From Sialis fuliginosa (Eukaryota > Arthropoda > Insecta > Megaloptera > Sialidae): a stretch of DNA of 64,000 nt. The notes under the pieces are model-generated. The model made no database searches. It saw nothing but the letters and a program-made list of their open reading frames with translations, and was not told the DNA's origin. Shown in pieces: positions 12,401 to 64,000 of this stretch. The first letter of the stretch is position 1, and every line of letters begins with the position of its first letter. The stretch spans positions 17,663,248 through 17,727,247 of the forward strand of contig OY540811.1 in NCBI GenBank assembly GCA_961205875.1, in the 5' to 3' direction. Both the position numbers and the translations under genes were made by a program.

Positions 12401-15400
12401 TAAGGATTTAATAGCTTTTGGAAATAAACTAACATAAGTTTTATTGATTGCTATATTTTTGACTGACATAGAAATAGGTGTTTAATAAATAGTATAGTTA
12501 TTTTGAATAATAGATTTTGGCTGAGTATTTGAAAACATATTGTACAATAACTAAACTTTCTTTCTATATATAAAATAATATTATCTTTTAGGTTCATTGG
12601 ATAATAAAATCAGATGTTAATAAAAAAAAGTTTCCTTATTTATCCAAACGTGATATGGAATAACAAATGGGTAAATTATTGTTTGTTATTTATTAATACA
12701 TGGATTTGATTGGTAAGCAATAAATATTCTATTTCTCAGAAGGATATCTTCATTAGAATAATTTTTTTTGTTCTATAATTTCAATGATACAATAAGCGGT
12801 ATCTTTTATAAAAAATACATTTGTAAGTTTTATAACTTCTTATTGTGTTGTTATTATACGGCATATTAAATAAATTATTCTTGTAAAATGGTTTACACAT
12901 TTCATGTTAATTTATCTTGAATACTTGTAATGAAAGCTTCACTGCTGCTGCTTATTTGACTATATAGTTAGATAAACCTCTATAAGGTACTGGCACCAGT
13001 TTTGGCTTCATTAAGAGCAAGGTATATTGTTTTTTTGGAATTGATAGGCTTCTTTTTTTTAATTCACATGAACTCATGTTATTAATAAAACAGGTAAGTA
13101 CCTTTTTATTAAATCAATTTAATTACCAAAGTCCGCAAATATAATTTTTTTTTATTATAACCTTTTATTTTGTTTATGTTTTTTCCAGTAATGGGTAAAA
13201 TAAAACCAATAATGAGCACCCAGTTATGGACACTTGCTAATGATTACAAAATGATAAGTACTACGACACAAAAGTTATAAAATAAAGAATTGTAAAATTT
13301 GAAACTACATTACACTAATAATTAGTTTAAATGTCCATCACTTTGACACCCATTAGCCAATTGACATCAAATTAAGCTGTTTTACAGTTAAGTGTAATCA
13401 AATATCAACAATTATTTCTAATATAGTAAATTTAATTAAACAAGAATCCAACACTGGGGTGTGATCCAAGACTGGTGCCAGTACCTTATTCAATTATAAA
13501 AAATTACATTTGATTTTGAAATCTTCGTAATAACTTTTATAGAATGAGTCGGTAAACTTTTTGGAGGTTCTTTGCAAAAAATACAAAGTGGAAATCCAAT
13601 TTTTGGAATTTTTTGTTTACCAGTTTTCTTTTTATTTGAGCTTGAATTTCGGATTTAGGTTGAATTTTTACAAAAAAAGTATGCGATATCAAAAAAAGCG
13701 ACCTATATGGCTAAACTCAAAATTCAAGCTCAAATAAGAAAAATTGATAAACAGAAAATTCCAAAAATTGGATTTCGACTATGCTTGACCAATACTGCTA
13801 TGTATATAGGTCGCTTTTTTGGTATCGCACACTTTTTTTGTGTGGCTGTGTAATTATTCTCTTAATAACATATAGATAGTATTGAAAATTGAATGATAAT
13901 GGTTTATATACCTATAATCAATACTAAAAATGACCTATAATTTAATCTGCATTAATATGCAATAATAATTATGTTGAATAGGCAATTAGTAAATATTTCC
14001 ATGTTTGTTCTAACATTTATTGTGAAAAGAAACGTGATATATATAATTTTGAACATGTGAATTTATTATTGCAACTTACATATGATACTACTGCAATTGT
14101 CGACATTATACATTTGAAATTATTTTCTAGGTTGACATTGAATTGCTTTTTAATTAATTATAGTGCTTTTTTATTCATACGTAGTCTTTAATAGCCGTTC
14201 TTACCATATTAGTTATGTATTAGTTATCTATAGCTAACAGATAATCTTATTGTATGAAATTTTTTTTATCTCATTTAAATTAAATACATACCTATAATAA
14301 TACTAATATGATGGTACTACATTATAGGAATGAAATGATTATATTTAGACTGTTAGACTTACCAAAAGAGGAATGTTGGTTGAAATTATTCTATCAACTT
14401 TCGGATCCCCTACAGATCTGTCTGGTCTAAATTCCACCCGGCGTTTGGGGATAAAAGACAATGTCCCGTTATCGTTGAATTGAGTGTTTGTATTCTCCAA
14501 AAATTCTCTGTAAAGAAAAGTTAGTTTGAAATATTGAATGATAAAAAATTCCCTCGGTAGTATTGTCTTTCATTTTAATAATACAATGAAAATTAATAAT
14601 ATTGAAATATGTATTAGAACTGAAAACATGATATTAAAATTCAGTTATGTTTGCAAACTTCAGTTAAATTGTTCTGACAATTAATTCAACCAACGTTTCG
14701 TGACACACATTGCAATGAAAGAATGATAAAAACAAAGATAATTTGTGAGATGACTAAAAATAAAAATCTGAAATAAAAGTTCTTATCTGTCCCTGCAATC
14801 TATCAACAACTTAACGTCTCAAAAGTCTTTAGATTTTAAACAAACGTACGAATAAATAATAATCATATTCCAAATATAGCAACATAATGATGTACGTAGG
14901 TACTACAAAAAATCTTATTGCAAGAACCACTCTTCTTTAAAATCGTTAGTTTGATCAAATGCTTTTGACAGTAATTTCATTACAGGCAAAAACTAAGTAC
15001 ATGCATGTATGACGTCATAGAAACTTCATGTATCATTAAATTTTATAGATGACGAAATTTTTTTGTATGTTTACCTAACAAAAAAAGTTGTTAAATATGG
15101 TAAGTGCATTTTTAAATTTGAATACAGGTATATACGGGGTGTCTCACATACCGATAAACTTTCAGGAGTTATCAAGGATATTAAAATAATCGGTTTTTGT
15201 TATCAAGACAATGTCCCCAAACGTGCCGTTTTAGCAGTTTAGCAAAAGAAAGTACCCCGCACAAAAGCAATAGGCCTTTTGATTGAATGATAGTTCAAAG
15301 TTTGCTCATCAAAAGTTGTAATGAGTGCAACCTACGAAAATCCATAATTTTTGCTCCAGGGGGCACCCAATCATTTCAAGTTATTTATAAAAAATAAAAA

Positions 15401-18400
15401 GCCCTTAGAATTAGTTAAAGAATACAAAAAAAATTATTTGAATTTTTCGTGGCATTTTTTAGTTTTTTGGTTAAGCAGCTTCTTTATGAAATTAATAGAC
15501 AGGTATGTTATGAAAAATAAAAACATTTTTTTTATATTATCTGGTTAATTCTAAGAACTTTTCATCTTCAGCAAAATTTTTTTTTTAGGAGATAAACATA
15601 AACATAGAATGTTTGGGTGCCCCCTGGAGCAGACATTATGAATTTTCCTAGGTTGTACCCATTACATCTTTTACATACTTTGAACTATCATTTCTCCAAA
15701 TAAAAGAAAAATTCAACCAAAACGCAAAATTCATTGCTTTTGTTCTATTTGTCCTATTTTCTCTTGCTAAAACGGCTCGTATGCGAACATGGATTTATTA
15801 ATAAAAGACGATTGCTTTAGTGTCCTCGACAACTCCTGAAAATTTGTCGGTTTGTTTACGGGACATCCTATATGTATACGTAGTTCTGTAATTACTGTAG
15901 TTTTTTTGAAGGGAGTTTATTTTTAGTAACAATAGAGACTAATAGATGAATGTCAATCAATCATTTTTGTTGGTGAGTTAATTTGTATTCAAATTAAAAT
16001 AATTAAATATTGAATGTAGGTAACTTTTTTTGTTGCCGATAAAATTAAAATATAATATGATAAATAAGGCTTATTTCAAATTATTTAAATAATTAAACTC
16101 GTTTTGTACATTATTTCTACTTGTGATATTAACATAAAATATTTTGTCGTTCATAAACTAAAATGACTAACTCCAAAAACAAAATGTTGAGGATGATAGT
16201 CCAATCAATCGAAACAAAAAAAGGCAATTTGTTCACATCAAATTCAGAAGTTTTGATATTAGAAAGGGTCGCATAATTTTCAACATTGGCTCCAAAAATG
16301 TGGTTTTCATAATATGCATCTACTTTTTGGTTTGTCTTACAATAAGTTATCAATATTATAGAAGAGACATTGATCTACAACATCCTTAAACTTTTATTGT
16401 AGATTGAATAGTATTTTCATTTCGGGAAGTTTTGAATCGTTGCTTCACCATAAAACCCATCTTGTCCGCCATTTTTCTATGATAGCGGTGCGTCAATGTT
16501 GAAAACTCAGTAAAACATTTATGACTTAAATGTACGTCACCCTTTCAAATACCAAAACTCCCGACTGACGTATGAAAAAATAACTTTTGTCTAGGTTATG
16601 AACTGGAGACAAAAAAATTAACTGCTGCTCTTTTGAAAAAGTACTAATTATAAAAAATTATGTAGATGCCAAAAAGTTAATTTAATAATTTTGACAATGA
16701 TAGACTATTTATAACACTTACTGGTAAACATAGGGTCCAACTTCATTGACTATAAGTTTTTTATCATCACCTCGAATAAATGCTTCTCCGTTTGTCACAT
16801 TGAATAAGTAAACACTAAGCAATACTTCGTAAGGAGGTTGCTGCCAGATCGAAAATGCAAACGATCCATTTTTTAAAGATAATTTCTGTAAAAAAAATTA
16901 TATAAGTATTTTTATCTTGAACGCATGCTACGTCCTGAAAAAATGAGCAAATGATAAACTTTACTTTACAGAGTGCGATTTGTCATAAAAATAACATATA
17001 ATCTAACTTTATCACATAGAAAATAAATATAAGCACAACCCGCGACCCACCTAGACATTTGATTACTTGATCAATTGTTAAATATGAAAATATAAAAAAA
17101 AAATAGAAAAAATACTAAGCGATATAATGGTCACACAATTTTAAGTTGAGAAGTATAATTGAGAGCTAACGTATTCTTCATACAGATACAATTTTACTAT
17201 TTGATGTAATTGAAATTCATTAAAAGATGAAGTTTAGTTCTTTAAAAAACCTTTATACATATATTAATAACAAATAAAATTATAAGTAATGTTAAAACAT
17301 TTTTTTCATTTGTAATAAAATAGGAATCTAAAAAGTCTTCGTCATGAATACATTTTAAGGACCTCCCTCTTTTTCAATCGCCAAAAAAGTTTATTTTTTT
17401 GCGGCACCCTTAACCTGCGGCCCGCGGATATATTTAAAATATAAAATATAAATTTAATGACCTTTTGAAGAAAAAAAGGTTGCGTATATCTTTGATATAA
17501 ACAATATACCTAAGCAAATTATTAATATAAATATTTATTGTTTTTATAAAAAAAAATTGTTTATTACTATCTTAATATTTTACACGTTGCATAGTTGTTT
17601 ACTTGATATCTACACTAAAATATAAATAATTGCCTATATATAGTTCGAAGTTAAGCACGATCATTGACTTGGGCATTTATTGTTTAGTGCTTTAATGTGT
17701 TTGCGGTGATATTTACATAAATATTCTGCATTCGCTCATTTTATCTTAATGTATTCAATTTTCTTTGTACCTACATCGGATATTATCTTTTCAACGGGAT
17801 CTAAGACAGCTATGATATATGCTAGGCACATGCAGATCGTCCCGGAAAACCCCAACGTCAGGATACCTGTAAATAATAGAAACATTATTTTATATTATTA
17901 ATGAATATACTTATTACTATGTTTCATATATATGTACATAAGGGTGGGCCAATTTTCCAATCGACCTCGGCTAACTCCCTACATGAAAGTACTCTCAATT
18001 CTAAGAAAAAAAGTCCATGGAATTATACCTTTATACATTCAACTTTACTTCGGCGCATTTTTGATTGAAAATTTTAAGTTTGTTTATAAAATTATTTTTA
18101 TTTTATATTAGTGAAACGACTTTTTGACCATTTTTATTTTTGTTCAAATGTTTGTATTTGATCCATAGATAAGAACACATTTAGATATTAATACAAAATA
18201 GATTTTTCATAAAATAATTCGGAGCACTAAAACGATAAATAACTGCATGGCATATTTTCAATATATACATAGATGATAATCAAAAGTGGAAATGTACATT
18301 TATAAAATGTATTATACTATGAAGGATAACCTAAAATATGCTTCGTCAGCTTGGAAAAACATTATTGACATATGTAAATCAAATCAATTGTTTTTCTTTT

Positions 18401-21400: not shown

Positions 21401-24400
21401 CACAGTATACATATCTATTCATTGTTTAGAGTTTATTAGACGCAATTAACATTTCTTAGAAAAAGTAGTTTATTTTTTGTAATTTTGAGTGTTCCGTACC
21501 AAAATCGAAACAAAGAAACACAATAATGCAGTGCGATACGCGTACCCCTGTGCTTCCTAATATTTAAAAAAAAAAAATTTTGTGTTCGGAATAACAAATT
21601 CTGCATAACTGATATTTTTACGCTTATTTTTTAAATTTTGTTATGCGTATTTGGTGTTTTGCATGAAAAACAGCTTTAAATGTAATGCATTTTTAAGATT
21701 TACCCTCCCCCCCACTAACACTTAACTTTTCAAAGGGGTACATGGGGATTTTAACTTTGGTAAATACTGCTATAATGGAATCAATACTGTGTCTGTCTGC
21801 TACTACTGAACTGTTTGACCTAGAAAATTGAGATTTGACCAAATAGTAAATGGTGGACCAATAATAAACCTGAATTATTAAAAAAAATCGTTTTTGGCTC
21901 ATTTTGAGGGAAGTAAACGAGTTTTATTACAATGAGATTCAAAATGAAAGCTGACAATTCCAGGAATCTTAATAATGTTTTGTTATTATTAAAATCTTGG
22001 ATTGAAAATAAAGGTTAGATTTACAATAATCGAAAAATGTTTTAGATATTCAAAGTGTTCAAAAGAAAAATTTTGAGAAAAATTAACTTCTATAATCTCA
22101 TTTTCAGATCACATTAACTACAACTTAACCAAGTAAGCCTTGAAAAATGACTGAAACATGTAAAACATTAAAAAGGAATCTAACTAATTTATTTGGTCAT
22201 TAGATTTTTTTATGTATTGTAAAGCGTTATTAAAATTGGTTTTAAATTAATTTATTTTATCGTTAGATTTTTTTTGGATGCTTGACAATTTTCAGTCATT
22301 TTTCATGGCATACTTGGTTAAGTTGTAGTAAATGTGATCTGAGATTAAAAGTTAATTTTTTTCAAAATTTTTCTTTTTTAATCTCATTAAAATTTTACAG
22401 GGTTGTATACAAAAAAATAAGATATATTCATAGAATAGATAAAAAAGATATATTGTTATTTAAAAAAATATAGTTATATGCTATAGTAACGTAACTGATA
22501 GCACCATTTTTTAAGATAAGCATTACATGGGAAATAATTTCTCTGAAAACTTTTACTAAATATAAACAATATTCCATATTTTTTACTCAGCCTGTATAAA
22601 TCAATTATTATTTGGCTGTTATTTGAAATGTTGTCATATACATATAGGTACTTATAATATATAACGTATCTCTACGAATTTAAAACAAAAAATAAATCTA
22701 CATCGGTTTTACTCGATACCAGTTTTCTTAATTACAAATTAAAATTCAGATGTAAAAGAAGAAAGTAGTATTGCAATTTCGCATACTGTAAAAATAATTT
22801 ATTAGTTTTCATATATGTAAGTTGAAGGTTTTTCGGTAAAGGTCGAAGATAGTATGTTAATTATATTTTTATATCTTGTTTTTAAAATCTGCATGAATTT
22901 ATTGTTTATAGTTGACTCATTAGGTATTTTTATAGTAATGAATTTATGTCATAATTTTTTAACATTTAATTTAATAATTCATTTCCTTTCAGTTCTTGAG
23001 GTTATTGTTCCCAAATTTAAAAATCATTTATTACTCCTTTTTTAAGTTATGTCAGACATTATGCAGAATGTCCCAAAAGTCTGGAAACGGTTTAACATTT
23101 CAAGAGGCAGGCATAAATCAAAATGTTTTAGTTTTCATTTTCAAATCCCGAGATTTTTTTTGGGTCGGGAACACAATGGGCCCGATTAAAATTTTCCAAT
23201 TAAAACAATTTTTTATTAGACCCATTGGGCCACAGCAAGGTACTTGTGTAAACGAATAATGGTCAACAATTCATCTCTGAGAAATAAATGGATTTTCATC
23301 AAAGATAATTGGGTTTTACAAGGTCAAGCCGAGGGCCCGGATCCAAAATTATTATCTGAACGCATACAATTATCCAGATTTTGAAAATTCAGTGAAAGAT
23401 TTTTTTAAATTTTATTTGTTAGCCACTTTACTTATATTTAAGAATTTTTTTTTAAATACACTCTTCCTTAAACAACAATACTAATTTCAATTTTTATTAC
23501 CAAAACAATTAAGTCGATTCAGTTATTTTATATACATAAATAAACTTGATTTGTAAAGTATTTTCTCGAAAAAAATTTAACAATATACAATTTTACATAA
23601 TTAAAAAAAAATTCTATCGTTTTTGTTCGATTGTTTATTAATTAATACAATATGTAAAGTAATAATTCGTTAAATTTAACTGATTTTAAATTTCGTTGAC
23701 CCTAGGATTCCCTTAAAGTTTAAACTATCGATAGTTGATAATTGATTAATATGGAAAATAATTGATATTTTATAAAAGAAATAGCGCATTGGACCCGGTA
23801 TTACTAATATTCACAAATTATACACCAAAAACTCGTGAATCACTATATCCATTAGTGAAAACTGGAATAAAATCCGTTCAGTTATTGAGTCTATGAAAAT
23901 TTAAAAAATAGGTTAGCAACGATCACAATATATTTCGATATTTTACCTGTGATGTGTTTCTTGTATTTCAAGTTTCAATCAATATATTTCAAAATATTTA
24001 ACTGTTAGCATGTGTCAAAAATCATCCAATTGTTCAACAAAATTAATAAAATATTGAAACCGTAAATTATAGAAATATTTATTCAATGGCTATCATGTTT
24101 TTATATAAATGAAATTTATATGCTGTGACATCAAGGAAACAAAACACGACTTGATAAAAGAATGTTTTAGTATTTTGATCGTAGTTTTTCATAAAATATT
24201 AATAGATAAGAACATCCACTGATAAATTAACTAATTATTGGTGAAAACTGCAATAAAATCGGTTCAGTAGTTTTCAAGTTTACCTGTAACATGTAGAAAA
24301 ATATAACTTCTTTTTGTAGAGGTAGAGATGAATAGAAGTCCAAGGTAGTTGCAATAATATAATTAAATCAAAAATTTATATTGAATAATTTTGTCAGGTA

Positions 24401-40624: not shown

Positions 40625-41615
40625 AAAAAAAACATCTGTTAAGTAAATGCACAGTACCTCCTCGTGATAAATTCACCAAAGATAGTTAATTAAATACACA
40701 ACCACACAAATAAAGTGTGCGATCCCAAAAAAACGACCTAGTATTGGTTAAGCATAGTTGAAATTCAATTTTTTTACATTTTCTGCTTACCAGTTTTTTT
40801 TATTTGAACTTAAATTTTGGGTTAAGGCTGAACGTTTCCAAGTTGGCTAGACCCAAAATTCAAGCTCAAATAAAAAAAACTGGAAAGCAGAAAATTCTAA
40901 AAATTAGGATTTCAACTATGCTCGACCAATACAACAATACTATATATATAAGACGCTTTTTTGGTATCTCACACTTTTTTTGTGTGTAGCTGTTAAATTG
41001 AACAGTTTAAATAAACATCGATAAAGTATTCTCATGAACTGCCATTGGTTAACCATTTAATTTTTTTTCGTATATTTTTTTAATTTTTGACAATTTCAAT
41101 CCAAATCTAAATTTGTCTGCTATACAAACGACAAAACTACATTTAATATGTCAAAGTTAATATCAATTTAAAAAAACAAATAACGATTTTTTAGCAAATT
41201 GAGATAAATCTTTGTAAGGGAATATTTTACATCAAACATTGTAGACTTATTTAAAATTTAATTTAAATTTTAACGTTACATGTGTCGTTCTTGAGATATC
41301 TAGAAAAAATAAATATTTTGGGATGTCACCTCTCCCCCTTACACACAATTTAGATGATTTTGAAATGGGACCGTCCTCAAGTCAGATCCAACCATCCGAC
41401 CAAGTTTCATTAATACCGGTTTAGTGGTTCGTGAGTTATGCGTGTGACAAGGACTCACTCAACAAACCGACACACACCCAGACAGACAGACACGAAACGG
41501 AGAGTGTTTATCTTGACCTGAAAGGGAAAGATCAATTTTGAAATCGAAGAACATTTTTTTTAAATGATCACAAAACTTCTCGTATCTTTGATATGGCGAG
41601 GAAACAAAAATATGG
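40625..41615 (+). repeat. Retroposon-like repeat family A, copy 1 (interrupted)
   Basis: It is homologous over most of its length to 45085-45855 on the opposite strand. Shared blocks include GATAAATCTTTGTAAGGGAA (with differences), CGTTCTTGAGATATCT, TGGGACCGTC, TTCGTGAGTTATGCGTGTG and GACAGACAGACACGAAACGG. Such 'flanked by cagacagac' sequences with conserved 'accgatttagtggttcgtgag' wording resemble 3' ends of insect LINE/SINE families. The 294-bp MITE at 40699 is inserted into it. It shows no reading frame of note. Confidence 0.65.
40699..40992. mobile_element. CAGCCACAC-type palindromic MITE, copy 3
   Basis: 294 bp with both ends present: CAACCACACAAATAAAGTG on the left and CACTTTTTTTGTGTGTAGCTG on the right side. 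Inside, GCATAGTTGAAAT is mirrored by ATTTCAACTATGC, and an inner hairpin is formed by AATTCAAGCTCAAAT. It interrupts a retroposon-like repeat whose uninterrupted relative lies at 45085-45855 in the opposite orientation. Confidence 0.8.
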
Positions 41616-44029: not shown

Positions 44030-44665
44030 TATCTGGGCCCGAGCGGCTTCGCTCGGAATTATTGTTTAGGATTTAAAACCAAACAACATTTAAATTACCT
44101 ACCTAACAAAAACGAGTCAGAACAAAAACTAAAAATAATTTGTGTTCTATTTAAATTTAAAAGTTAATTATTGAAAACAAAATAAACAATTGACAATCAA
44201 AAGAATGCCGGCCTGTGATCATTCCCTCTGCCCCGCGACTACACGGTACGCTCACTGCTTACCGCACGCCGCGACACGGGTTCTCATCGCACGAATAATA
44301 TGTTCCCGTATGTATATTTCAAGATATTTTCTAAACTATACGACTAAATTGGATGCTGTAAAGGGCAGAATTCTTTACTACACTATTTTGTTCAGTATTG
44401 AACGGTTAAAGCAGCGTATCGCAAAATAGCGCGCCGACGGCAAAATTTTTTCCGACTTGATTTACTATTATCGTCACTGCTTAGTTGTTATGTTACCTAA
44501 CGTAACAAAATATAGCCTATATCCTGGCTAGAGAACGTACCTATGAATTGAAATGAAAAAAAAAGAAACCACGTAAATCGGATAAGTGGTGCTCGAGTGA
44601 TAAGGGCACAAACGGACAGACAGACAGACGTTCAGCTTTATATATATGTAAATATAGATGTGCGT
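44030..44665 (+). repeat. Retroposon-like repeat family B, copy 1
   Basis: It starts near GAGCGGCTTCGCTCGG and contains GCAGCGTATCGCAAAATAGC, ACTATTATCGTCACTGCTTA and TGTTACCTAACGTAACAAAA. It ends in a GGATAAGTGGTGCTCGAGTG, CAGACAGACAGACG and TATATATATG tail. The same order of blocks occurs in two more copies. A GC-richer insert at about 44,200-44,300 is unique to this copy. Confidence 0.7.
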
Positions 44666-45084: not shown

Positions 45085-45855
45085 TTTGGTCGCATATTCA
45101 AACTTATTGCTTCCTCACAATATCGAAAATACGAGAAGCTTTTTAATCGTTTCAGATTGAGACAAAAAAATTCTCCATTTCATAATTTTAAATTGATTTA
45201 TCCATTTCACGTCAAGGCAAACACTTTTCGTTCCGTGTCTGTCTGTGTGTTCGTCCGTCCGTGTGTCTGTGTGTCCGTCTGTCATCTGAATCCTTGCCAC
45301 ACGCATAACTATAAACCACTGAACCGATATTATTGAAACTTGGTCGTATGGTTGGGTTTGGCTTGAAGACGGTCCCATTTCAAGATATCTCAAGAACGAC
45401 ACATGTTATGTGAAAATTATATAAAATATTTTTTGTAGATCATTAAATTTCCTATAATATGGATCTACAATGTTTGTTGTAAAATATTTCCTTATAAAGA
45501 TTTATCTCAATTTATTTTAAAAATTCGTGTTTTGTTTTTTTTTAAATTGATATTTGCTTGTGCATATTAAATGTCATGTTGACGTTTTAAATGTCATTTT
45601 GACGTTTGCATAAATTTAGATTTAGATTGAAATTGTCAAAAAATTTAAAATATACGAAAAAATAATCAGGTGCGTTTTAAGAAAAATTTCGAACTAATAT
45701 TTTTTAGTAAAATTGTATAAAAATTAAATGATTAACCAATTCTATCTTATCTGAGCATCGGTTTTTATTTAAATTGTTCAATAATTAACTACCTTTGGTG
45801 AATTTTGTACGAGGAAGCTCTGTGCATTTAATTGGCAGATGTTTTTTTTCAAATG
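45085..45855 (-). repeat. Retroposon-like repeat family A, copy 2
   Basis: This is the reverse-strand relative of 40625-41615, without the MITE. The TCTGTCTGTGTGTTCGTCC block at 45237-45255 corresponds to the CAGACAGAC run of copy 1. Reading frames of 86-95 codons on both strands here are by-products of the repeat, not genes. Confidence 0.65.
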
Positions 45856-47565: not shown

Positions 47566-47907
47566 AAACTATCCGTGCCCGCGGCTTCACTCGCTTAAAT
47601 ATAAAAGTTAGATATCTGGTATATATATGTACATTATATTGTTCAATATTTATGGGCTTGAGCAGCGTATTGCAAAAGAGCGTGCTGGCTGAAAACTTTT
47701 TTCATACTTGATTTATTATTATCATCACTGCTTATTCCTTATGTTACCTAACATAACAAAATAAATATATGTACTAAAACCTGGCCAAAGAACATATCTA
47801 TGAATCGAAAAAAAACACCTAAATCGGATAAGTGGTTCTCGAGTGATAAGCACACTAACGAACATACAGACAGAGAGACGTTGTGTTTTATAATATATAT
47901 AGATGTA
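47566..47907 (+). repeat. Retroposon-like repeat family B, copy 2
   Basis: It has the start CTATCCGTGCCCGCGGCTTC, the core GCAGCGTATTGCAAAAGAGC and the end GGTTCTCGAGTGATAAGCAC followed by ATACAGACAGAGAGACG and an AT-rich tail. Same orientation as copies 1 and 3. Confidence 0.7.
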
Positions 47908-48649: not shown

Positions 48650-48975
48650 AAATCAGCTTCGCTCGCGTGGACTACGGAATTATTATTTAAGATTTTTTAA
48701 AAATATAGTTGAATTTTTTAGATCTTTTTATTCTACACAATTCTTTACTACATTATATTGTTCAATATTTAACGATTTAAGCAGCGTATTGCAAAAGAGC
48801 GCGCTGGCGGCAAACTTTTTTCCTACTTGATTTACTATTATCGTCACTGCTCATTTCATATGTTACCTTACGTAACAAAATATAAAACACATAAATCGGA
48901 TATGTGGTTCTCGAGGAATAAGCATACTAACGAACAGACAGACAGTTGCGTTTCATAATATATATATATAGATTT
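48650..48975 (+). repeat. Retroposon-like repeat family B, copy 3
   Basis: It starts near CAGCTTCGCTCGCGTGG, shares GCAGCGTATTGCAAAAGAGC and TATCGTCACTGCTCA, and ends with GAACAGACAGACAG and TATATATATATAGAT. All three copies lie in the same orientation within 5 kb. Confidence 0.7.
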
Positions 48976-52060: not shown

Positions 52061-55000
52061 ATGGCAAGTGATTGGAAAGAGCGATTAGGAATTCCAATAA
52101 ACTATTCTTCGGGTGATGATGAAGTGTATGTATTAAAGTTAAACCTAATTATCGTTTTTATATTATTATATCTATGCGAACCTGTCATTTGCAGTTGTGT
52201 AAACAAATGTTATCATATCGTATTTTAATATAAAATTTATTATAATTGTTCTGCATACACAAACTCGATAAGACACCATAAAATCATCAGTATTTATTAA
52301 AATAATTAATATTTATGTAATTTTTAATTCATGAATAAAAAATTCCAAAATTTAGATATATATGATTTGATAATTGAACACTTTACAATATTTTTATCAG
52401 TATGTTATGTTGGTTGATTAAAAACATCTATTTTTTAAAAGAATAAATAAATAGTGATGTAATATTTAATTAATTTATAGTGATGAAAATAGTCCCGACA
52501 AACTTAACGAATCTCAGAGAGTTTCTAGTGTTGATAGTAATATATCAAACGAAGATGCATTATTACATTTTGATCAATATGGCTCTACTCCTCCGAGAAC
52601 CAGAATATTACGCAAAAACCGTGAACGAAGTCAAAGAAACGATTCGAGGTTCGCCTCCTAATAATTTTTCTCATTTTATATTTTTATCCTAATTGTGTCT
52701 GTTTCAGTTCTACAAAGACTATGAAATTTTTGAATGCTAAATTGAATCGCAGAAATACTATTGGTACAATGTTTATCGAATTAATTGAAAAAGCTGAAAA
52801 CGCAAACTCTGATTTAGACATGCAGGGCCGAAGAAATGATAAAAGATCTTTAACAAAATTACGAGGATCTGAGCGTGACTTAAAACTAAACATAGGCTCT
52901 TCACAAATGTCTGAAAAAGTTTTAGCTTCACCTCATTCAAATGAAGAAAGAGCAGAAAGCATGCCCATCTTTTCTCCACCTCCAATACAAAATCCTACGC
53001 TGGTAAGAAAAAAAACCACTTCTATAATACAAAATATAGATTTTTAATTTTAACTCTTTGCATTCGGATGGCGCCATATCGGCGACACTAAATAATCATA
53101 TCATAACTCATACCTATAGGTACAATTATATCATTTTAAAAAGATTTGCTCCAAGTGTTGGTTGGTATATCAGAAAATTTTCCGAGTGCAAAGGGTTAAT
53201 ATCTTCACCAATTTAGGTCAGTTTTTAATTTCTTTTTAATATTTAGATTGAAACTCGCAATCGTTTCATGAGCTTGACTTCACGTCCAGTTAAACATCGT
53301 TGGAAACAAACGTTCCCAAACTGTTTATATATATCAAATTCATTAGAAGTTACATATCCAGAAGATCGAATAGAATTACACAGAAAATTAACAGTTCTTC
53401 TGCAATCTGGATACAGAGACATAAGTCATCAGGTAAATGAATATTTAAGCACAATATAATATATATATATATATTATTGAAACTTATTAAAAATTGTCTT
53501 TAGATGAGTCATGAAGAACATATGTGGCAGAATGAATTGAAAGATCTCATTTGGTTAGAATTACAAGCATGGCATGCCGATCGTACACCAAAACAACAGG
53601 ATGCTTATCTTTGTATGGCAAGAGAATCGGTTGGACAGTTGTTACAAGAAATTATGCATTACAAGTTAGTCAATTTTTTATATAAATTTAGAAAAGTCAA
53701 TCATCGTTTTATTCATTTGTATAATATTTTATAAGGAACCTGGAAAATAGGCCGATTTGGATAAAAAACTGACTGCCAAAACAAATTAGGTTAATAATAC
53801 GAATTTGATCTAATTTGAAAATTAACAAGCTTCTTAATGAGTTCTTTTTAATGTCGACCTTTTATCTATGACAGCTTTTTGTCTACGTCGGTTTTTTGTC
53901 CACGCTGATCTTTAGTCGTAAACCCATTTTATGAGACATTAAAGTACTGTTTAAATAACAACAGAATCACTATTGTATCATTTATTAAGTAGTTGTAGAT
54001 AAATATGTATATAAATTATTTTACTTGTAATATAAAGTAAACATTTTCATGACTGCTCTTCTATCAATTTTTCCTGAACTTGTTATAGGTAAATTTTCAA
54101 TATACCTTGTTACTATCTCTATATGAAACTTCACATTTGTTTTAACTAAAAATAAATAAATTTTATATATTTAACTACATGTATTAAATATAATATCTAC
54201 TGACCTTTAATATAAGCATTTATGTCTTGCTCAGTCATTTTTTTCACGGATTTTCTTACAATTAACACTCTACCAGTTATAAAAGTATTTGCTTCATTTT
54301 TTAATCCTAACACAATAGCTGCTCTAATTTCAGGATGATCAAGTAATAATAATTCAAGTTCTGATGATGATATCTAAAAAATATTAATTACAATCAATAT
54401 GATACAACAAAATTACATTTCTTATAAGTTTACTTTGAACTGTTTATGTTTAACATCATCTTCTAGCCGTCTATCAATATAGAGACATTTATCTTCATCG
54501 TAATAACCAGTATCACCTGTATATAGCCATCCATTACTGTCAATCGTTTTTAACGTAGCCATAGAATCATTATAATAGCCTGTCATAATCCGAGGACCTC
54601 TGATGCAAATCTGTCCATGTACTTTTGTACCAACTACTCTGTTGGCATTGTCAATTATCTAGAAATTATCAAAGTAGGACATATTACTTTTTCAAATGTC
54701 CTAATAAATGATATTTTACCTTGATTTCTGTATCTGGTTCCGGACGTCCTACAGATAGTTTTTTATCAAAGATACTACAAACTAAACCAGAAGCTTCAGT
54801 TAATCCATAACCGTAACATATGTTAGCATTGGAAAAAATATGTTCGCCTTTACTTAAATGATTTTCTGAGATTTTATCTCCGTGGACAATCATCAGTTTT
54901 ACAGTTGATAAATTATATTTTTTTACATTTGCATGTAAGATTATTTCACGGTAATATGCTGTTCCTAATATAAGACCAATATTTCCCTAAAAATGATTTA

Positions 55001-58000
55001 TCACGTAAGTAAAACAATAGTTATAAATTATTAAATAATTTACCACTTGTTTACTTATAATTTGAAGTAACAATTCAGTGTCAAATTTTGGTGATAGAAT
55101 ATTTAAAACACCATGGTTTATACAATTAAACATTGTTTTTATTCCTGTTATTGTTGATAACGTTGATATATTAATTAGTTTAAAGTGTTTCCAATCGTTA
55201 TCCCTAATGTATAAAAGTTATTTTATAACTATTTTTAAATTAACATATATTTTTTTTGTAAAAAAAGATATATGCATATCAAATTTTACCATTGTGATTG
55301 TATTTGGTGCATTAAATTTCCATGAGAAATAGAAACAAGTTTTGGCAAATCTGTTATTCCACTTGTAGGCATTATTAATCCAATGTAATCATAAGGAGAG
55401 CTAAAATCAAGTACGATTAGTTCTTCTGTATCTTCATTCTCAAGGAAATTATTAAACGGCGTGTGAGTTTTGGTATCTTGAAATATAACTAGTTCGATCG
55501 ATAAATTCAGTTCTTCAAGTGATTTCCTTATCTTTTCTATACATATTTGGTCACAAAATATCAGTTTTGGTTTTAATAGTTTAAGTAAGTGCCTTATATC
55601 ATCTAAAATTAAATTTTAAATAAGTATGTACATAAGAAAATGATGTGTTGTTCGTACTATATTTTTACTCACGTCGATAAGATGTGGGATCTAAAGGTGC
55701 AACAATTGCTCCTATGTATAAAGAAGCAAGTACTGGTAAACAAACATTAATATTATTGTAACTGCAAACTGAAATGATATCATTCTGTCTTATATTTCTT
55801 TTCCGTAATTCTTTTGCAACATGAATGCTTTGAGATTTTATTTCTGAAAATGTTTTTGTTTCTCCTGATATTGGGTCACACTAAAATCAATTAAAAATAA
55901 ATGTTTTATAAATTTGAAATTTATAGTTCTAATCAGTTGTAAAAATATTTAGTTATAATTTTAAAATAAAAAAACTAATATGCTTTTTCATATCAAATTG
56001 ATAATATTTTTATTCTTTATTTAAACAGAGATAAAATGGATTATAAATAAATATTATACTTATCGTACTTGTGCCACAGAATGTCCATGTTTACTAAGAC
56101 ATTCTAACAAATGTTTTCCTAGGCTTGATGTTTGATGGTACTTTAATTTAGGCCCTTTTAAAGTAAAGTACGTTTCAGTTGAATATGTATCTGGCATCTT
56201 ATACTATTTACAAACAACCAATGAACACAAAAAACATTTGTTTTTTATATTTAAATATTAGATAATTAAAAACCTTGTGATGTTTTATGTTTGATTTACC
56301 AATTAACAATTATTTGTGATATTAATGTTTATATTTACAGTACTACTTATCTACTAATTTATATTATACCATCCGTATGAAGTTTTTTTAATATTTTTCT
56401 GACAAATAATTATCAATAATTTTATCTTACAGATTATTAACTCAAAGATTTTAAATATTCCTACCATACTTTTTTAGTTTTGTATATTAATAACTACATA
56501 TTTATTTTATTTAGTACCGTAAAATTTTCTTTCGTATATACAGCCATATAAAAGTTGTTAACTTGCCAATTTAAACATTTTTTGGATTATTTTATAAAAA
56601 ATGTTTTTGGAAAGTGTTGTATGAAATATCATATAATTATGTTCTATTCATTATAGAATATATATATTTGAAATTGCTCATAACAGAAAAAAATGTTGGT
56701 TATAAAAGTAGAGAATGTTATTTCCTATAATTTATGTTCCAATCATTTTTTTACATCTTTTATCAGTTAGCCAGAAAGATTTATTATATAAGTAGATATG
56801 CATACACTGTTCACTCTCAGTATTTCATATAAAAAAGTCCTAGCCTTTTTTTATATATTGTAAAATGTTTTAATTTTTACTTTTAATTTAATTGTAAATA
56901 ATATTGCTAATTTTATCTTTTGTGCATGTCGCTAAGCTTTTAAAATTAATATTCTAATTTTTAGATTTGATCGTAACAACAGATTATCGATTCCAAAATT
57001 TTCTGTTTCAACTCACAGTAACGATAGTGGAATGGGTTTAGATTGTACTATGAAAGATTGTTGCATTGATACTACACGTATATTTACATTGGAAACAAAT
57101 GCAGAGGAAAAAATAAAAAGTAATTGCTACTAATTTGAACTATGTTCTAGAAAAGTATTGAAAGTCATAAAAATAATGAATTAAAGAAAACAAAATTTCA
57201 ATAATAATAATCGCATGCTTTTTTATTTATTAAGATAACGCTTTAAAATATTTTGCTTATTAACTTGCATATGGGATTTCATCGGTAGAGTTTAAAAATT
57301 GAAATAAAACAATCCTTTTTTAGTGAGTAATTCCTTTGATAAAGAAAACGATATTCAGTGTTCAGGATGCTTATCAATGTATTGCAAGTCATGTATCGAA
57401 GCTCAGAATAATGCTCTTCGAGAAGTCGAATATTTAATGGAACGTTTAGAAGCAGCAGAAGCCTTGTATCCATCAAGTAAAGCATTTGCCCAACATTATC
57501 CTTTGTATAGCTGCCCTGAGTTTGTAGGAAGAGTTAAGGTAAGAGTATACAGTTGTTTTATTTAATTAATAACTAAAACAATGATTGTATTTTTCAGGCT
57601 ATGTGCTTGTGGTATAATTTAACTAAACATCAGCGTTTAAAACTTCTTATTTTGGGAAAATTGATGATTTTTTTGCAAGGACGTCACTGTCAGTGGCCTA
57701 TTGGTTTATCAGATTTTGATGTGACTTCATCTAATGATGAAACAGTTTCACATGCTGATGCTATGTCTAGGTATGAATAGAAAGAAATGATTAAATTAAT
57801 TTTGTATTCTTTTTAAAATGTATTATTTTAGAAGCACTTCAGTTGAACATCATTCCAAAAAACATTGTGTTCATTTTGAGATGGAAACAACAAGTCCATC
57901 AGACAGTAATAATTCCTCTGGTTCATCCGTAACTGACAATAATATAGGAACCATTAAGACAGAAGAAGAATGTATAGATGAAAATGTAGATTATTATAAT

Positions 58001-61000
58001 GTTGCTCCTATAGAATCGCTTGGAAGACAATTGAAAAGTCCAACCACTTCTCCTTACAGGTAGTAAATTTATTATACATTTCCTTTAATTTGTCTTCTAT
58101 ATTATGTATGTTTTAGGAAATATATTGAAAATGTCTTAAAAACTAAGGGACTAAGGAAAGCATTGTATTTTCTGGAATTGTTACACGAGACTGTGTTGAG
58201 AAAAGCTCAAATAACTTTACAGAAACCTCCAGATGGAGTTTCATTTAATGAATATTGTAGAAGAAAATGCGAAATACAAGTAAGTAGCATTTAGGTTCAG
58301 TAAACTTAGTCTTACCATATGTTCGAATTTAAAGGTATGTCTAAGAGTTCTATCAGGATTGTCTCAGTGATTAAGAATTAATAAAGCCTTCAAAATCCTG
58401 AAAAAAAAATTTTTTCCTTTTTGTTGATTGGATATTTGAACAATTTTTCTTCTTATTACTGTCAATTATATATTAATTAAATGGACCAAAATTTGTACTT
58501 TACAATTTTTTTTAAGGATAACAGTTACGACATAGATGAGTGTGAACTACGTCGCTATGGACGTTGGAGTCCTGAAGCTGATGAATTGCAGCTTCCGTCG
58601 TACAGTTCTGCATTCATTTTTCTTTCTCTAGTCCCTATACAAGTCATTGATGAGTTCATGAGAATGCGCTTAGAGCAAAGACCAAATAGACCTTCTCCGC
58701 TAAGTATTAGACAAGTATGTTAAAACACTTTATTTATATTTTAATCTTTACATTGTTATGTAGAGATATCTAACAATAAAACATTTTTATAGATAATGAG
58801 GGAGCTAAAAGAAGGTCTGAGGCTAGCCGTATTGCACAGACAACGTATTCTAAATCATATCAACACAATTTTATGTGATAGTGACCCTGAAATGCAGCAA
58901 TTTAAAAAAACAGTTAATGAATTTGATGAAAGTGTTAGAAACGTTTTTGAAGTAACTATAACAAAATCATATAAAATGAAAATCAGTCCTTGTTTATATT
59001 GAAATAATAAGCTATTGATTTATTTTTAGATGTACTTAGAATATATCGAACAGTGGTCATTAATGATACATTACGAAAGTTTTCAAAAAAGTATGCTTGA
59101 AGAAGAATGGTTTTTTGTAAAAACAGTTTGTCCCCATGTACCTGGAACACACGTTATAGTAGCTAAAAAATTTTGCTTAATACTTACATCGATATTAAAT
59201 ATTATCGGCTTAACGTTAAAAAGTCGTGTAGAAGAATTAGCTACTAGTATTAGTATTGGCTTTATTACAGATGAAGATTTTGATGATCGGTAATAAAATA
59301 AATATAAAAATCTGTTAATTTATAGTAATATGATTTAAATTGCAGACAAACATTGTTGTTAATTTGTCGAAAAATTCAAAATTTATTTAATGAAGAAAAG
59401 GAAAGATCTTTGAAAACATTGTCATTTGCTAAAAACTTGTATAAAGAACTTCATTGGACAGAATTTACTGAAAACGAAGATATAAAAGAACAAGTTAATG
59501 ATGGTTTAAATACAATAAAGGTTATAATTTCTCAGTGCTTAGAAATTCACTTAATTTTCTATTATAAATGTCTATATTTGTTTAATTTTTTAATTCCAGG
59601 ATGCAATTATCAGCCTACGTAAACATTTAATTGATGCTATTGAACGTGTACAAGAAATCTGTGATCAACCATTAAATGATGAATTAGATGATAGTGAACG
59701 AAATCATCTTTTGTTACGATGTAGAGAAATATTACACCAAGCGTTTAAATTTGGTTTTGAAGTATGTAACTCATAAATTACTGTATATAAAAATTTTAAT
59801 TGTAATTTTTGTTTACTTTATTTCAGTACCACAAAGATGTAAGTCAGTTTGATTCAAATAATGAAACTCGCACCCATATAGCTTTAAACTTAATACATTT
59901 TGGAAAAATGTGGATACGATTTGTGATGGAACGTTGCGAAAGAGGTAGAGGTCAGAAACCACGTTGGGCGTATCAAGGAATGGAATATCTGTCACTTATA
60001 TCTGATCCTTACTATACACAGCATATGAAAAATGAAGAATTTGAGGTAAAATTTTAGATATGAGTGTAGTCAAACGTAATATAGTTAGCGTTCACTTAAT
60101 GTACATCCTCTTAATATATGTTTAATAATACATACATAACGTCATTTGGGCATGTCAACGAATGTGTATGGAGCATTTAAGTGAAGATTTACCTAACTGT
60201 TTAAGCAATATTAAAACCATTATAAGCTTGTATATCTAACATTTACTTTCATATGTAGGATTTTAAAAAATGTATTGATGATTGTATAACATATATCATT
60301 GGTACTGCTTCAACACCATCACCAGAATTGGCTTATTCATCCCCTCACCGCATTGGTACTATCTACTCAAGATCTAGAGGTTCATCCCCACAGAGATCTC
60401 GAACCTCTTCGTTCAGCATGTCTCGACAAAAAAGTGGAAGTTTTCGGAAAGACAGTGGTGAAAATCATGATATGATAGATTCACCAGATGGTCATAGGTA
60501 ATTATAAAAGTTAATGATATCGATTGGTTCATATTTTGAAATTGTTTTCTTTTTTATAGTAAATTGACAATCAACTTTGGAGCTAGGACATCTCGAAAAA
60601 ATACAACAATCAATCGTAAGTGTAAATACATATGTATATAAATTTGTAGAAAAAAAGTACATAATAAAAATGTAATTAAATATGTGTTGTTTTTAGATTC
60701 TATGAAAGCTCCAAGATCAGAAAGAGTTCGCGATGCTATTAATAAATTAGAAATGTCTTTAGAACAACAACTGAGATCACAAGAACTTATAGGGCAAGTG
60801 ACAATAACTGCAGTACAAGATGCTGATAAAATTCATATCAAATCTCGTCAAGTTACATTCAGTTGGCAAAGGGGCATTAAAATTGGTACAATTATCATAA
60901 ATATAAACTACACTCTATATTGTTATGATTGTAATTTTTAGGTCAAGGTAGATTTGGAAAAGTTTATACTGCCGTTAATAATGAAACCGGTGAAATGCTG

Positions 61001-62191
61001 GCAATGAAAGAAATTTCTTTACAACCTAACGATCATAAAACAATAAAGAAAGTCGGTGAAGAAATTAAAATTTTTGAAGGCATTAAGCATGTGAATCTCG
61101 TAAAATATTATGGAGTTGAAATTCATAGAGTATGTTATTTATTATATAATTTAATATTTTCATTTCTAATTGTACTTTTGTTTTTGTAGGAAGAAATGTT
61201 AATATTTATGGAATTTTGTTCAGAAGGTACTTTAGAAACTTTAGTAGCAGCTACTGAAGGTGGCTTGCCAGAAATTTTAATCAGACGTTATACGAGACAA
61301 TTGCTGTCAGCTGTAGCGACACTTCATGATTTTGCTGTCGTCCACAGGGACATAAAAAGTGCCAATATATTTTTAACAGAAGAAGGGAATTATATTAAGT
61401 TAGGTGATTTTGGATCTGCAGTTAAGATTAAAGCACATACAACAATGCCAGGGGAACTGCAAGGTTTTGTTGGGACACAAGGTTTGGAAGCAATTATTAA
61501 AACTTTTATTTACATATATTAATTGTATTATTTTACAGCATACATGGCACCTGAGGTTTTCATGAAGACAAATACGGAAGGCCATGGAAGAGCAGCTGAT
61601 ATTTGGTCTGTAGGATGTGTCGTAGTAGAAATGGGATCTGGAAAAGTACGTATTACAATTATATTTGATTTTTGAAAATGTGAACTAACAAAAAACAAAT
61701 TGATTATAACACACAACTTTTATGTGGTTCCTAGTAATCGGAAAAGGAATTAAATTTTGAAGCATCATTCCAGTTTCTTTAAAATTCCGTATTGACCGTT
61801 AAACCTTCAATTATTATTTATTACATCAAAGCGATGTGAATTAGTGGTACTGCTGCCAACCAAATTACTTACCAACTTTCTTTTTTAGTTGTCAATTGTG
61901 ATTATGTTCTTATTCACATTATTCTGTAATTATTCGATCATAATATGTACCACAGAATAGTAAAAAATGTTTTTTTATTAATAGCGTCCATGGGCTCAAT
62001 ATGACTCCAATTACCAAATAATGTTTGTGGTTGGTATGGGAGAAACTCCAGAAGTTCCTGAAAGACTTAGTGATGAAGGTAAACAGTTTTTAGAGCGGTG
62101 TTTGCAGCATGATCCTCGTGAAAGAGCTACAGCTAGAGAATTGACGCAGCTTAATTTTGTAAAGGTTGACGACGGTCCTGATTTAGTATAA
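52061..62191 (+). CDS. MAP3K4: MAP3K4/MEKK4-type MAP kinase kinase kinase (insect Mekk1 orthologue), complete
   Basis: Twenty-three exons join in phase: 52061-52125, 52481-52648, 52708-53002, 53247-53432, 53504-53664, 56965-57119, 57324-57538, 57598-57770, 57832-58059, 58117-58279, 58517-58714, 58793-58951, 59030-59289, 59346-59520, 59600-59761, 59827-60045, 60259-60497, 60560-60615, 60697-60885, 60942-61129, 61190-61481, 61539-61645, 61985-62191. They total 4,260 nt, 1,419 residues plus TAA. The MEKK4-specific N-terminal region is recognisable ([32 protein letters not shown]). The C-terminal kinase domain has the glycine loop GQGRFG (1156-1161), ATP lysine in AMK (1178), HRDIKSAN with Asp 1272, DFG Asp 1291, and MAPE. 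These enzymes phosphorylate MKK3/4/6/7-class kinases in stress p38/JNK signalling. A CxxC-x4-CxxC cluster sits at residues 356-367, and a Ser/Arg-rich linker is encoded by exon 17. A separate gene occupies intron 5 in antisense. The exon 2 donor (GAG|GTTCGC) is weak. Confidence 0.96.
53054..53195. mobile_element. piggyBac-type MITE in MAP3K4 intron 3
   Basis: The 142-bp element lies between two TTAA tetranucleotides (53050-53053 and 53196-53199). Its ends are CTCTTTGCATTCGG and CCGAGTGCAAAGGG. TTAA duplication with CCCTTTGCA-type ends is characteristic of piggyBac-like non-autonomous elements. It lies between exons 3 and 4 and disturbs no splice site. Confidence 0.85.
53459..53476. repeat. 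TA microsatellite
   Basis: A run of alternating TA in MAP3K4 intron 4, about 30 bases before the acceptor of exon 5. Confidence 0.8.
53853..53920. repeat. 17-bp tandem repeat, four degenerate copies
   Basis: Units of 17 bp start at 53853, 53870, 53887 and 53904, with the shared pattern GTCGnCTTTTTGTCTAC. It lies in MAP3K4 intron 5, downstream of the nested gene's polyadenylation signal. Confidence 0.65.
53981..53986 (-). promoter_or_regulatory. Polyadenylation signal AATAAA of the nested acyl-CoA synthetase-like gene
   Basis: Minus-strand AATAAA (plus strand TTTATT) begins 35 bases after the TAA stop at 54021-54023. This position fits a short 3' UTR and supports an independent transcript ending inside the host intron. 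Confidence 0.6.
54021..56197 (-). CDS. Acyl-CoA synthetase / luciferase-like (ANL superfamily) protein, nested gene
   Basis: Eight minus-strand exons join in phase: 56197-56069, 55880-55673, 55602-55290, 55203-55044, 54986-54720, 54658-54434, 54373-54205, 54118-54021. They give 1,569 nt, 522 residues plus TAA, close to the usual 530-550. ANL enzymes adenylate a carboxylate and pass it to CoA. Seen: YGYGLTEA (A5, 328-335), GWLYTGD (A7, Asp 408), DRR (421-423), and SSGKIDRR near the C-terminus with the expected catalytic Lys at about 507. The phosphate-binding loop, normally of the SSGTTGxPKG type, reads [11 protein letters not shown] (192-202). The A8 segment after DRR lacks the usual glycine (KHKQFK). 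Activity may therefore be altered or lost. No peroxisomal SKL-type tail is present (ends LYYK). The gene lies entirely inside intron 5 of the plus-strand MAP3K4 gene. Insect genomes carry many such '4-coumarate-CoA ligase/luciferin monooxygenase-like' genes; the substrate cannot be read from sequence. Confidence 0.93.
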
Positions 62192-62648
62192 TTTTTTTTA
62201 ATTAGCATTTATATATTACTGGTTTTTGGTAATGTTTTATTATTGTTAGATATACGTATATGTATTTTATTTAAGTCGTTGTGTTTTTAGTAGATGAAAA
62301 TAATTCAATTTTGAGAAAAACAAATTTTACAAAGTTTTAATATTTTGGTCTATTAAAAACATATTTTGGAGTCTGATTATAAGTGACTTAGATGAAAATA
62401 GTGATGTTCTTGTATCAAGAATTTATTAACTTAAAATAATGTTTACACTTTATATTTTTAATGTAACTATTTTAAAATATTTCACTTTATGTAGCAGTTT
62501 TAAAAAAATATATTATTGTATATTTTATATATTATAAATATCTAGTTGGGAGTGAGAACATCTTAATGTATGTCTTTTGTTAAGTGCATTTATTATTAAC
62601 AAAAAAATTAAAAAATTACGTTTTGACAATTACAAAAATGATAATATC
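62192..62648 (+). other. 3' flank/UTR of the MAP3K4 gene
   Basis: AT-rich sequence after the TAA. No canonical AATAAA was found. ATTAAA near 62353 (CTATTAAAAAC) is a possible variant signal. The inverted-repeat element begins at 62649, so the 3' UTR must either end before it or run into it. Confidence 0.35.
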
Positions 62649-63198
62649 ATATATGACGGATTCCACGGTCGATCAGACAGAGCGCTCGCGCTGGCCTTTT
62701 TTAATGTATCGCTACTTTTCTATCTCGCTGTGTCCAGTGCCCACGGAGCTACAAAAAAAATCTGCATACGCAATTAGATAGATTTTTGTCTGATCTTTCT
62801 AATGGTGTCCTCATTTTTCCCGGAAAATGCATTTTTCACCGAGAAAATCGACTTCAAAGTTAAAGCGATTTATCGGAAAATATGTATCTTTCGAACCTGG
62901 CTTAAGTTATATCAATCGATAGATAATCTAATGATGAACATCTGTGCGAAATTTCAGGATGGAGACTTTAACAGTTCAAAAGTTATTAACGAATGAACAT
63001 CGAAAAACGTGGTTTTGCGGCCGCGCGTGCTGCTACAAACAGCGCTACAACGCACGTAATGTTTAAATTTAAAAGTCTTTTGCATTTTTGCATTCGTGCA
63101 GAGGCGTATTTACCATGGGGCCATGGGGGCCATGGCCTAGGGCGGCAGGTTGAGAGGGGCGGTAGATTTTTTTAGTTTCATATAGCACATTTAAAAAA

Positions 63199-63276
63199 TT
63201 GCCGCTTTGGGCAAAAAAATTGTCGCCCTGGTCAAAAAAAAATTGCCGCCCTGGTCAAAAAAATTGCCGCTCCTAT
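63199..63276. repeat. 21-bp minisatellite in the palindrome loop
   Basis: About three and a half copies of a unit near TTGCCGCCCTGGTCAAAAAA, with small changes in each copy. It begins exactly where the left arm stops pairing. Confidence 0.75.
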
Positions 63277-63366
63277 ACCATGGGAAAATATAATATATTT
63301 TTAACAGTCAAAATTCCTATATGAACTGAAAAGTGATAATTTTTTTTGCAAATAATGGAAAATATA

Positions 63367-63404
63367 ATCATATATTAAACATACTAGTATGTTTAATATA
63401 TGAT
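63367..63404. repeat. 38-bp perfect palindrome
   Basis: A perfect inverted repeat with no spacer, centred on ACTAGT and flanked by TAAACAT/ATGTTTA, inside the loop of the larger palindrome. It could extrude as a cruciform or act as a hairpin. Confidence 0.8.
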
Positions 63405-64000
63405 ATAATGTACATAAAAAACTGATTTTTTGTTTCCCTATTATTTTTTTTAAATGTGCTATATGAAACTAAAAAAATCTACCGCCCCTCTCAACCTGCC
63501 GCCCTAGGCCATGGCCCCCATGGCCCCATGGTAAATACGCCTCTGCACGAATGCAAAAATGCAAAAGACTTTTAAATTTAAACATTACGTGCGTTGTAGC
63601 GCTGTTTGTAGCAGCACGCGCGGCCGCAAAACCACGTTTTTCGATGTTCATTCGTTAATAACTTTTGAACTGTTAAAGTCTCCATCCTGAAATTTCGCAC
63701 AGATGTTCATCATTAGATTATCTATCGATTGATATAACTTAAGCCAGGTTCGAAAGATACATATTTTCCGATAAATCGCTTTAACTTTGAAGTCGATTTT
63801 CTCGGTGAAAAATGCATTTTCCGGGAAAAATGAGGACACCATTAGAAAGATCAGACAAAAATCTATCTAATTGCGTATGCAGATTTTTTTTGTAGCTCCG
63901 TGGGCGCTGGACACAGCGAGATAGAAAAGTAGCGATACATTAAAAAAGGCCAGCGCGAGCGGTCTGTCTGATCGACCGTGGAATCCGTCATATATATGTA

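Follow-up and report, generated by a model that had tools for sequence, protein, structure and literature searches.

The DNA analysed here is a 64-kb window (64,000 nucleotides) of contig OY540811.1 of Sialis fuliginosa, with a G+C content of 27%, in which several ORFs match known protein families. Two ORFs on the minus strand, at 3404-3763 and 11373-11657, match the CD36 family and are probably exons of one or two genes, and two others on the same strand, at 54684-54986 and 55286-55615, match the AMP-binding enzyme family and are probably exons of one gene. Searches with Rfam at gathering thresholds and with ARAGORN gave no matches in the window. Towards its right end lies a kinase gene, which the earlier note had named MAP3K4. 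The kinase domain (Pfam PF00069) is present, with 78.2 bits at 61190-61519 and a further 25.7 bits, below the cut-off of 31.7, at 61985-62188, within the last exon (61985-62191, plus strand; stop codon at 62189-62191). The MAP3K4 identity is plausible and as yet unproven, being suggested by a weak MEKK4_N match in the ORF at 59329-59619 (E 0.0008; 17.6 bits, below the cut-off of 24.9); among solved structures, GCN2 and MAP3K2 gave the two best matches to a 97-residue kinase fragment. About 0.46 kb past the stop codon of this gene lies a large inverted repeat. As two ATTAAA motifs (62352 and 62607), and no AATAAA, are found between the stop codon and the element, the kinase mRNA could end before the element.

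The inverted repeat is a near-perfect palindrome spanning 62649-63995, as the earlier note had described, with a left arm at 62649-63198 on the plus strand and a right arm at 63446-63995 on the minus strand, 550 bp each, flanking a 247-bp loop (63199-63445) in which no coding sequence was seen. Pairing halts abruptly at 62648/63996 on the outer side and at 63199/63445 at the loop, so that the clean ends claimed for it are real. The arms had been thought to differ at a single position, but there are two: position 62682 is G, with C on the partner strand, and position 62738 is T, with C on the partner strand, giving TG in the left arm and CG in the right. The latter difference looks like the outcome of a CpG transition. 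Hence, 548 of 550 positions pair, which corresponds to a divergence of 0.36% (95% interval, 0.04-1.3%). The longest exact inverted match within 60001-64000 is 460 bp, compared with at most 24 bp (mean, 13.7 bp) in 100 first-order-Markov sequences with matching dinucleotide frequencies, and a chance origin of the repeat is therefore excluded. RNA folding of the stretch predicts a single long hairpin (-1097.9 kcal/mol), which is a consequence of the repeat and thus no separate evidence. Stretches free of stop codons reach at most 72 codons anywhere in the element; long reading frames are absent from 62649-63995, and no transposase or superfamily hallmark was found in the element. On its left side the loop carries three overlapping 34-nt direct-repeat copies with AAAAAATTGCCGC-type units (63193-63270, plus strand), found by repeat search, and further to the right a perfect palindrome of 38 bp (63367-63404), which was detected by self-blastn and also forms in the predicted fold.

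The outer edge of the left arm coincides with a sharp change in base composition. G+C rises from 16% (62607-62656) to 56% (62657-62706), or, in 20-bp steps, from 10% (62635-62654) to 60% (62655-62674), and the arm stands at 41% G+C, whereas 550-bp windows elsewhere in the 64 kb average 27.2% (sd, 3.8%) and do not exceed 39.8%. Because of this step, the left arm starts where foreign-looking DNA starts, a statement that applies to the left side, just 5 bp being known past 63995. This boundary bears upon two ways in which a palindrome may arise without transposition of the whole. One is an artefact of assembly or library preparation, in which one real arm was duplicated in inverted orientation by a chimeric read or by the assembler. 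The position of the element, only 5 bp from the end of the window, speaks for such an error. On the other side, the arms show two mismatches, the repeat does not extend into the 247-bp loop, and its outer edge coincides with a composition step that a break in a chimeric read has no reason to respect; an artefact is therefore regarded as highly improbable. The other is a local inverted duplication by template switching, whereby a one-armed transposon remnant would have been copied back inverted during replication or repair, a one-off event whose product is immobile as a unit. Microhomology would come from an A/T run on the inner side and from ATATAT on the outer side; simple sequence is indeed present at both junctions (A run, 63193-63198; ATATAT, 62649-62654), and the loop is asymmetric. 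However, the copy would have to end exactly at the outer composition boundary, whereas the arms of a transposon give this boundary for free. A literature search for work joining template switching, inverted duplication and foldback elements found none.

Candidate target-site duplications were examined at this locus. Among 14 symmetric starts, the best boundary is 62655, which yields the longest direct repeat, the 6-bp ATATAT at 62649-62654 and 63990-63995. If this is the target duplication, the transposon body is the 1335 bp at 62655-63989, GACGGATTCC...GGAATCCGTC, a proposal that rests on the symmetric boundary and the G+C step. ATATAT is ambiguous in this role since it is self-complementary; the arms could just as well include it as their final 6 bp. 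Self-complementary 6-mers make up ~2.8% of the 6-mers in the window, with 154 occurrences of ATATAT alone, and a direct repeat of at least 6 bp at any of the 14 symmetric boundaries was obtained for 70 of 3000 random AT-rich site pairs; this control leaves the inverted arrangement of the arms out of account. With asymmetric ends, 62655-63987 is bordered by an 8-bp direct repeat, TCATATAT, but the same scan returned repeats of at least 8 bp for 22 of 300 random site pairs, and for 45 of 300 when the flanks were AT-rich; it was thus dropped as evidence of duplication. Other asymmetric boundaries give CATATAT, TCATATA and ATATATG. Direct duplications of 7 or 8 bp are absent from the 14 symmetric boundaries, and none of 9 to 11 bp appears when the ends are shifted by up to 15 bp, the right side being limited by its 5 bp of flank. 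The ATATAT repeat is compatible with a target duplication and constitutes weak evidence for one, a weakness that also favors the copying back of an arm by template switching. The random-site-pair control accordingly lowered our confidence in a transposon a little and raised that in template switching by as much; the latter is still considered unlikely.

Each arm is a mosaic. The outer parts are rich in CpG, with observed/expected ratios of 1.67 (62649-63108) and 1.74 (63548-63995), and the inner parts are poor in it, with ratios of 0.44 (63109-63198) and 0.56 (63446-63547); these bounds, chosen by eye, are offset by up to 10 bp from the start of the hAT-like sequence. This sequence, CAGAGGCGTATTTACCATGGGG, begins at 63099; we take it to resemble the ends of hAT transposons, and its mirror copy ends at 63545. 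The name hAT-like for the inner part is based on the terminal sequence CAGNGGCG..., presumably of hAT type; a literature search for CAGAGGCG together with the hAT superfamily and terminal inverted repeats gave no match. The piece apparently recruited into the left arm, which starts CAGAGGCGTATTTACC, occupies 63099-63198 on the plus strand, and that apparently recruited into the right arm, which ends GGTAAATACGCCTCTG, occupies 63446-63545 on the minus strand. An independently inserted hAT element is bordered by 8-bp direct repeats on both sides. Duplications of 8 bp are also described for the hAT MITE Mar (PMC3517528). The flanks of the inner part (63099-63545), by contrast, are CATTCGTG and CACGAATG, which are reverse complements of each other, and no 8-bp direct duplication lies beside its CAGAGGCG ends, the longest direct repeat being 4 bp (TGCA) with the ends shifted by up to 15 bp. 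Since the flanks are inverted and direct repeats do not exceed 4 bp, the hAT-like piece belongs to both arms, and the inner 100 bp fits the recruitment of another transposon into both. A later hAT insertion into the center of a ready-made palindrome predicts an 8-bp direct duplication, and its absence lowers this candidate; conversion between the arms could have erased one. Mirror-image flanks lacking such a duplication also fit an arm that was copied back by template switching.

Relatives of the element were sought within the window and in several sequence collections. No second copy was found in the window, either by self-comparison or when the left arm and loop together were compared with 1-62600 by blastn at word size 7. 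The best weak match in the window covers 39 bp at 82% in an AT-rich part of the loop (E 3e-4 for arm and loop together; 8e-5 when only the loop is the query), and the arm by itself gave three matches of 15-27 bp in 1-62600 (E 0.14-0.50); all of these were taken as noise. Exact-pattern scans of viral contigs, a collection not expected to include the host genome, gave 0 matches, and blastn against phages and plasmids, collections that are uninformative on host copy number, gave none either. A pattern scan of bacterial and archaeal genomes pointed to 13 loci, which were all taken as chance since similarity is confined to 18-29 bp at the pattern site and the rest has E of at least 0.36. In the literature, a text search for the end sequences gave 10-letter forms only, the 14-16-letter forms being absent among the matches listed.

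Inverted repeats are abundant in this window. Blastn self-comparison revealed nine other inverted pairs of at least 200 bp, which are 64.6-79.2% identical, together with shorter ones of 37-68 bp at 80-92% and the perfect 38-bp palindrome in the loop. The view that the other inverted elements are visibly diverged is thus correct for the large ones. Owing to the nine large pairs, this stretch of the genome can be called rich in foldback-like repeats, of which the present one is the freshest among the large. Five further stretches (2345-2637, 6290-6830, 15146-15855, 22061-22377 and 40703-40986) are self-palindromic over ~0.3-0.7 kb, at 65-73% identity to their own reverse complement, and would be foldback or MITE-like elements of greater age. 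Near some of their ends there are short direct repeats, for example AAAGTAG for 6290-6830 and TACGGG for 15146-15855, which are of lengths common by chance. An inverted pair, 41063-41610 and 45104-45662, with arms of ~550 bp that are 69% identical and 3.5 kb apart, may have formed the two arms of a single old element of larger size; nearby, direct repeats are found at 44366-44661, 47630-47906 and 48736-48973.

The diverged state of these neighbors is relevant to the proposal that the palindrome, or the transposon, is older and that its arms have been held identical by arm-to-arm gene conversion. Both differences fall in the outer 90 bp and leave the inner 460 bp as the longest stretch of exact pairing, a distribution with a chance of ~0.03 if differences were uniform (a value calculated after seeing them), and conversion would offer a route for the hAT-like piece into both arms. 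Nevertheless, no pattern can be drawn from just two differences, recency alone suffices to account for the likeness, and the nine large pairs at 64.6-79.2% identity have evidently enjoyed no such maintenance. Conversion as the explanation of an old palindrome is hence improbable, more so than template switching; it may still act together with recency in keeping the arms alike.

The structure of the element corresponds closely to that of foldback transposons, in which long inverted terminal repeats make up most of the element: here, two 550-bp arms within 1347 bp. The nearest parallels are with Galileo, a foldback-like member of the P superfamily, whose copies 112, 145 and 147 are described in D. 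willistoni (PMC4168063). Galileo has very long terminal repeats, which are nearly identical in copy 145 (959-bp arms, 99.9% identical); copy 112 likewise consists of two TIRs only, without a transposase segment (PMC4168063). Its insertion sites are AT-rich, and its arms have been extended with fragments of other transposons, present in both arms (PMC4168063), as also seems to be the case here. In D. buzzatii, GalileoN-1 and -2 have TIRs that are >99% identical within a copy and ~7% divergent between copies (PMC2775673). The differences lie in the target site. The Galileo duplication is described as 7 bp, rarely 8, with the consensus GTATTAC, in contrast to ATATAT or the 8-bp TCATATAT here, a comparison of descriptions rather than of sequences (PMC4168063). 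The asymmetric 7-8-bp repeats are unlike GTATTAC, and the 14 symmetric boundaries have none of this length.

Similar correspondences are found with other families. In Tm1, the Mutator/Foldback family of Meloidogyne, the TIR portions are fully identical in 5 of 61 elements, with a mean of 93.15%, and 45 of 53 complete elements are flanked by target duplications, which range from 8 to 10 bp and are most often 9 bp long (PMC3169594). Against this stand the 6 bp of the present symmetric boundary and the 8 bp that occur only asymmetrically and at chance level, the comparison being once more of descriptions and not of sequences (PMC3169594). Tetris, a foldback transposon of D. virilis, resembles the element in being apparently non-autonomous, with modular long arms and a middle domain lacking apparent coding capacity (PMC4079207). 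Unlike the element, Tetris has target duplications of 8-9 bp in three complete copies and 9-10 bp in four rearranged ones, and its arms hold ~220-bp tandem repeats, which the present arms lack (PMC4079207). MuTAnT, a plant family of Mutator-like elements targeting TA microsatellites, shares the AT-rich insertion, often near genes, and its flanks are mostly (TA)n, which renders the duplication hard to see (PMC4486113). MuTAnT differs in being a family of plants, and the TA run here is short; the likeness is one of description, not of sequence (PMC4486113). Because the Galileo consensus is not matched, no transposase or second copy was seen, and a duplication of Tm1 type amounts to 8 bp only asymmetrically, the element is placed in no superfamily.

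Of the three origins that had been considered from the outset, a young foldback transposon is the best supported, by the G+C step, the lack of coding sequence and the mosaic arms with their precedent, and maintenance by conversion and artefact are less so. We consider it probable that the stretch is a recently inserted, non-autonomous, non-coding foldback-type DNA transposon of ~1335 bp. Such an element would have landed recently in a TA-rich spot downstream of the kinase gene, and a transposase made elsewhere would recognize its GACGGATTCCACGG ends and mobilize it through a cut-and-paste mechanism. The outer CpG-rich 450 bp of each arm would be its own terminal repeat, followed by ~100 bp of a hAT-like transposon end. 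This piece was probably acquired by one arm first and then transferred as a copy to the second through recombination or through template switching in gap repair, for which Galileo offers a precedent. The near-identity of the arms would then reflect recent formation, recent arm-to-arm copying, or both. A bolder proposal, that the element belongs to an undescribed foldback family with TA-rich targets, in which the hAT end is a fixed module of the arms and whose members spread as mosaics of two superfamilies, is put forward as a doubtful but conceivable extension.

The published Galileo and Tm1 cases already include long arms that are nearly or fully identical, and Galileo also carries foreign sequence in both arms. 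The element is probably an ordinary representative of a known kind, and on its own the insertion is nothing unusual. If other copies exist, it would join Galileo as an example of foldback elements that extend their arms with another transposon. For the host genome, an inverted repeat with nearly identical arms of 550 bp, lying immediately beyond a kinase gene, is likely to be a fragile site, and, if transcribed through, it could be a source of double-stranded RNA.
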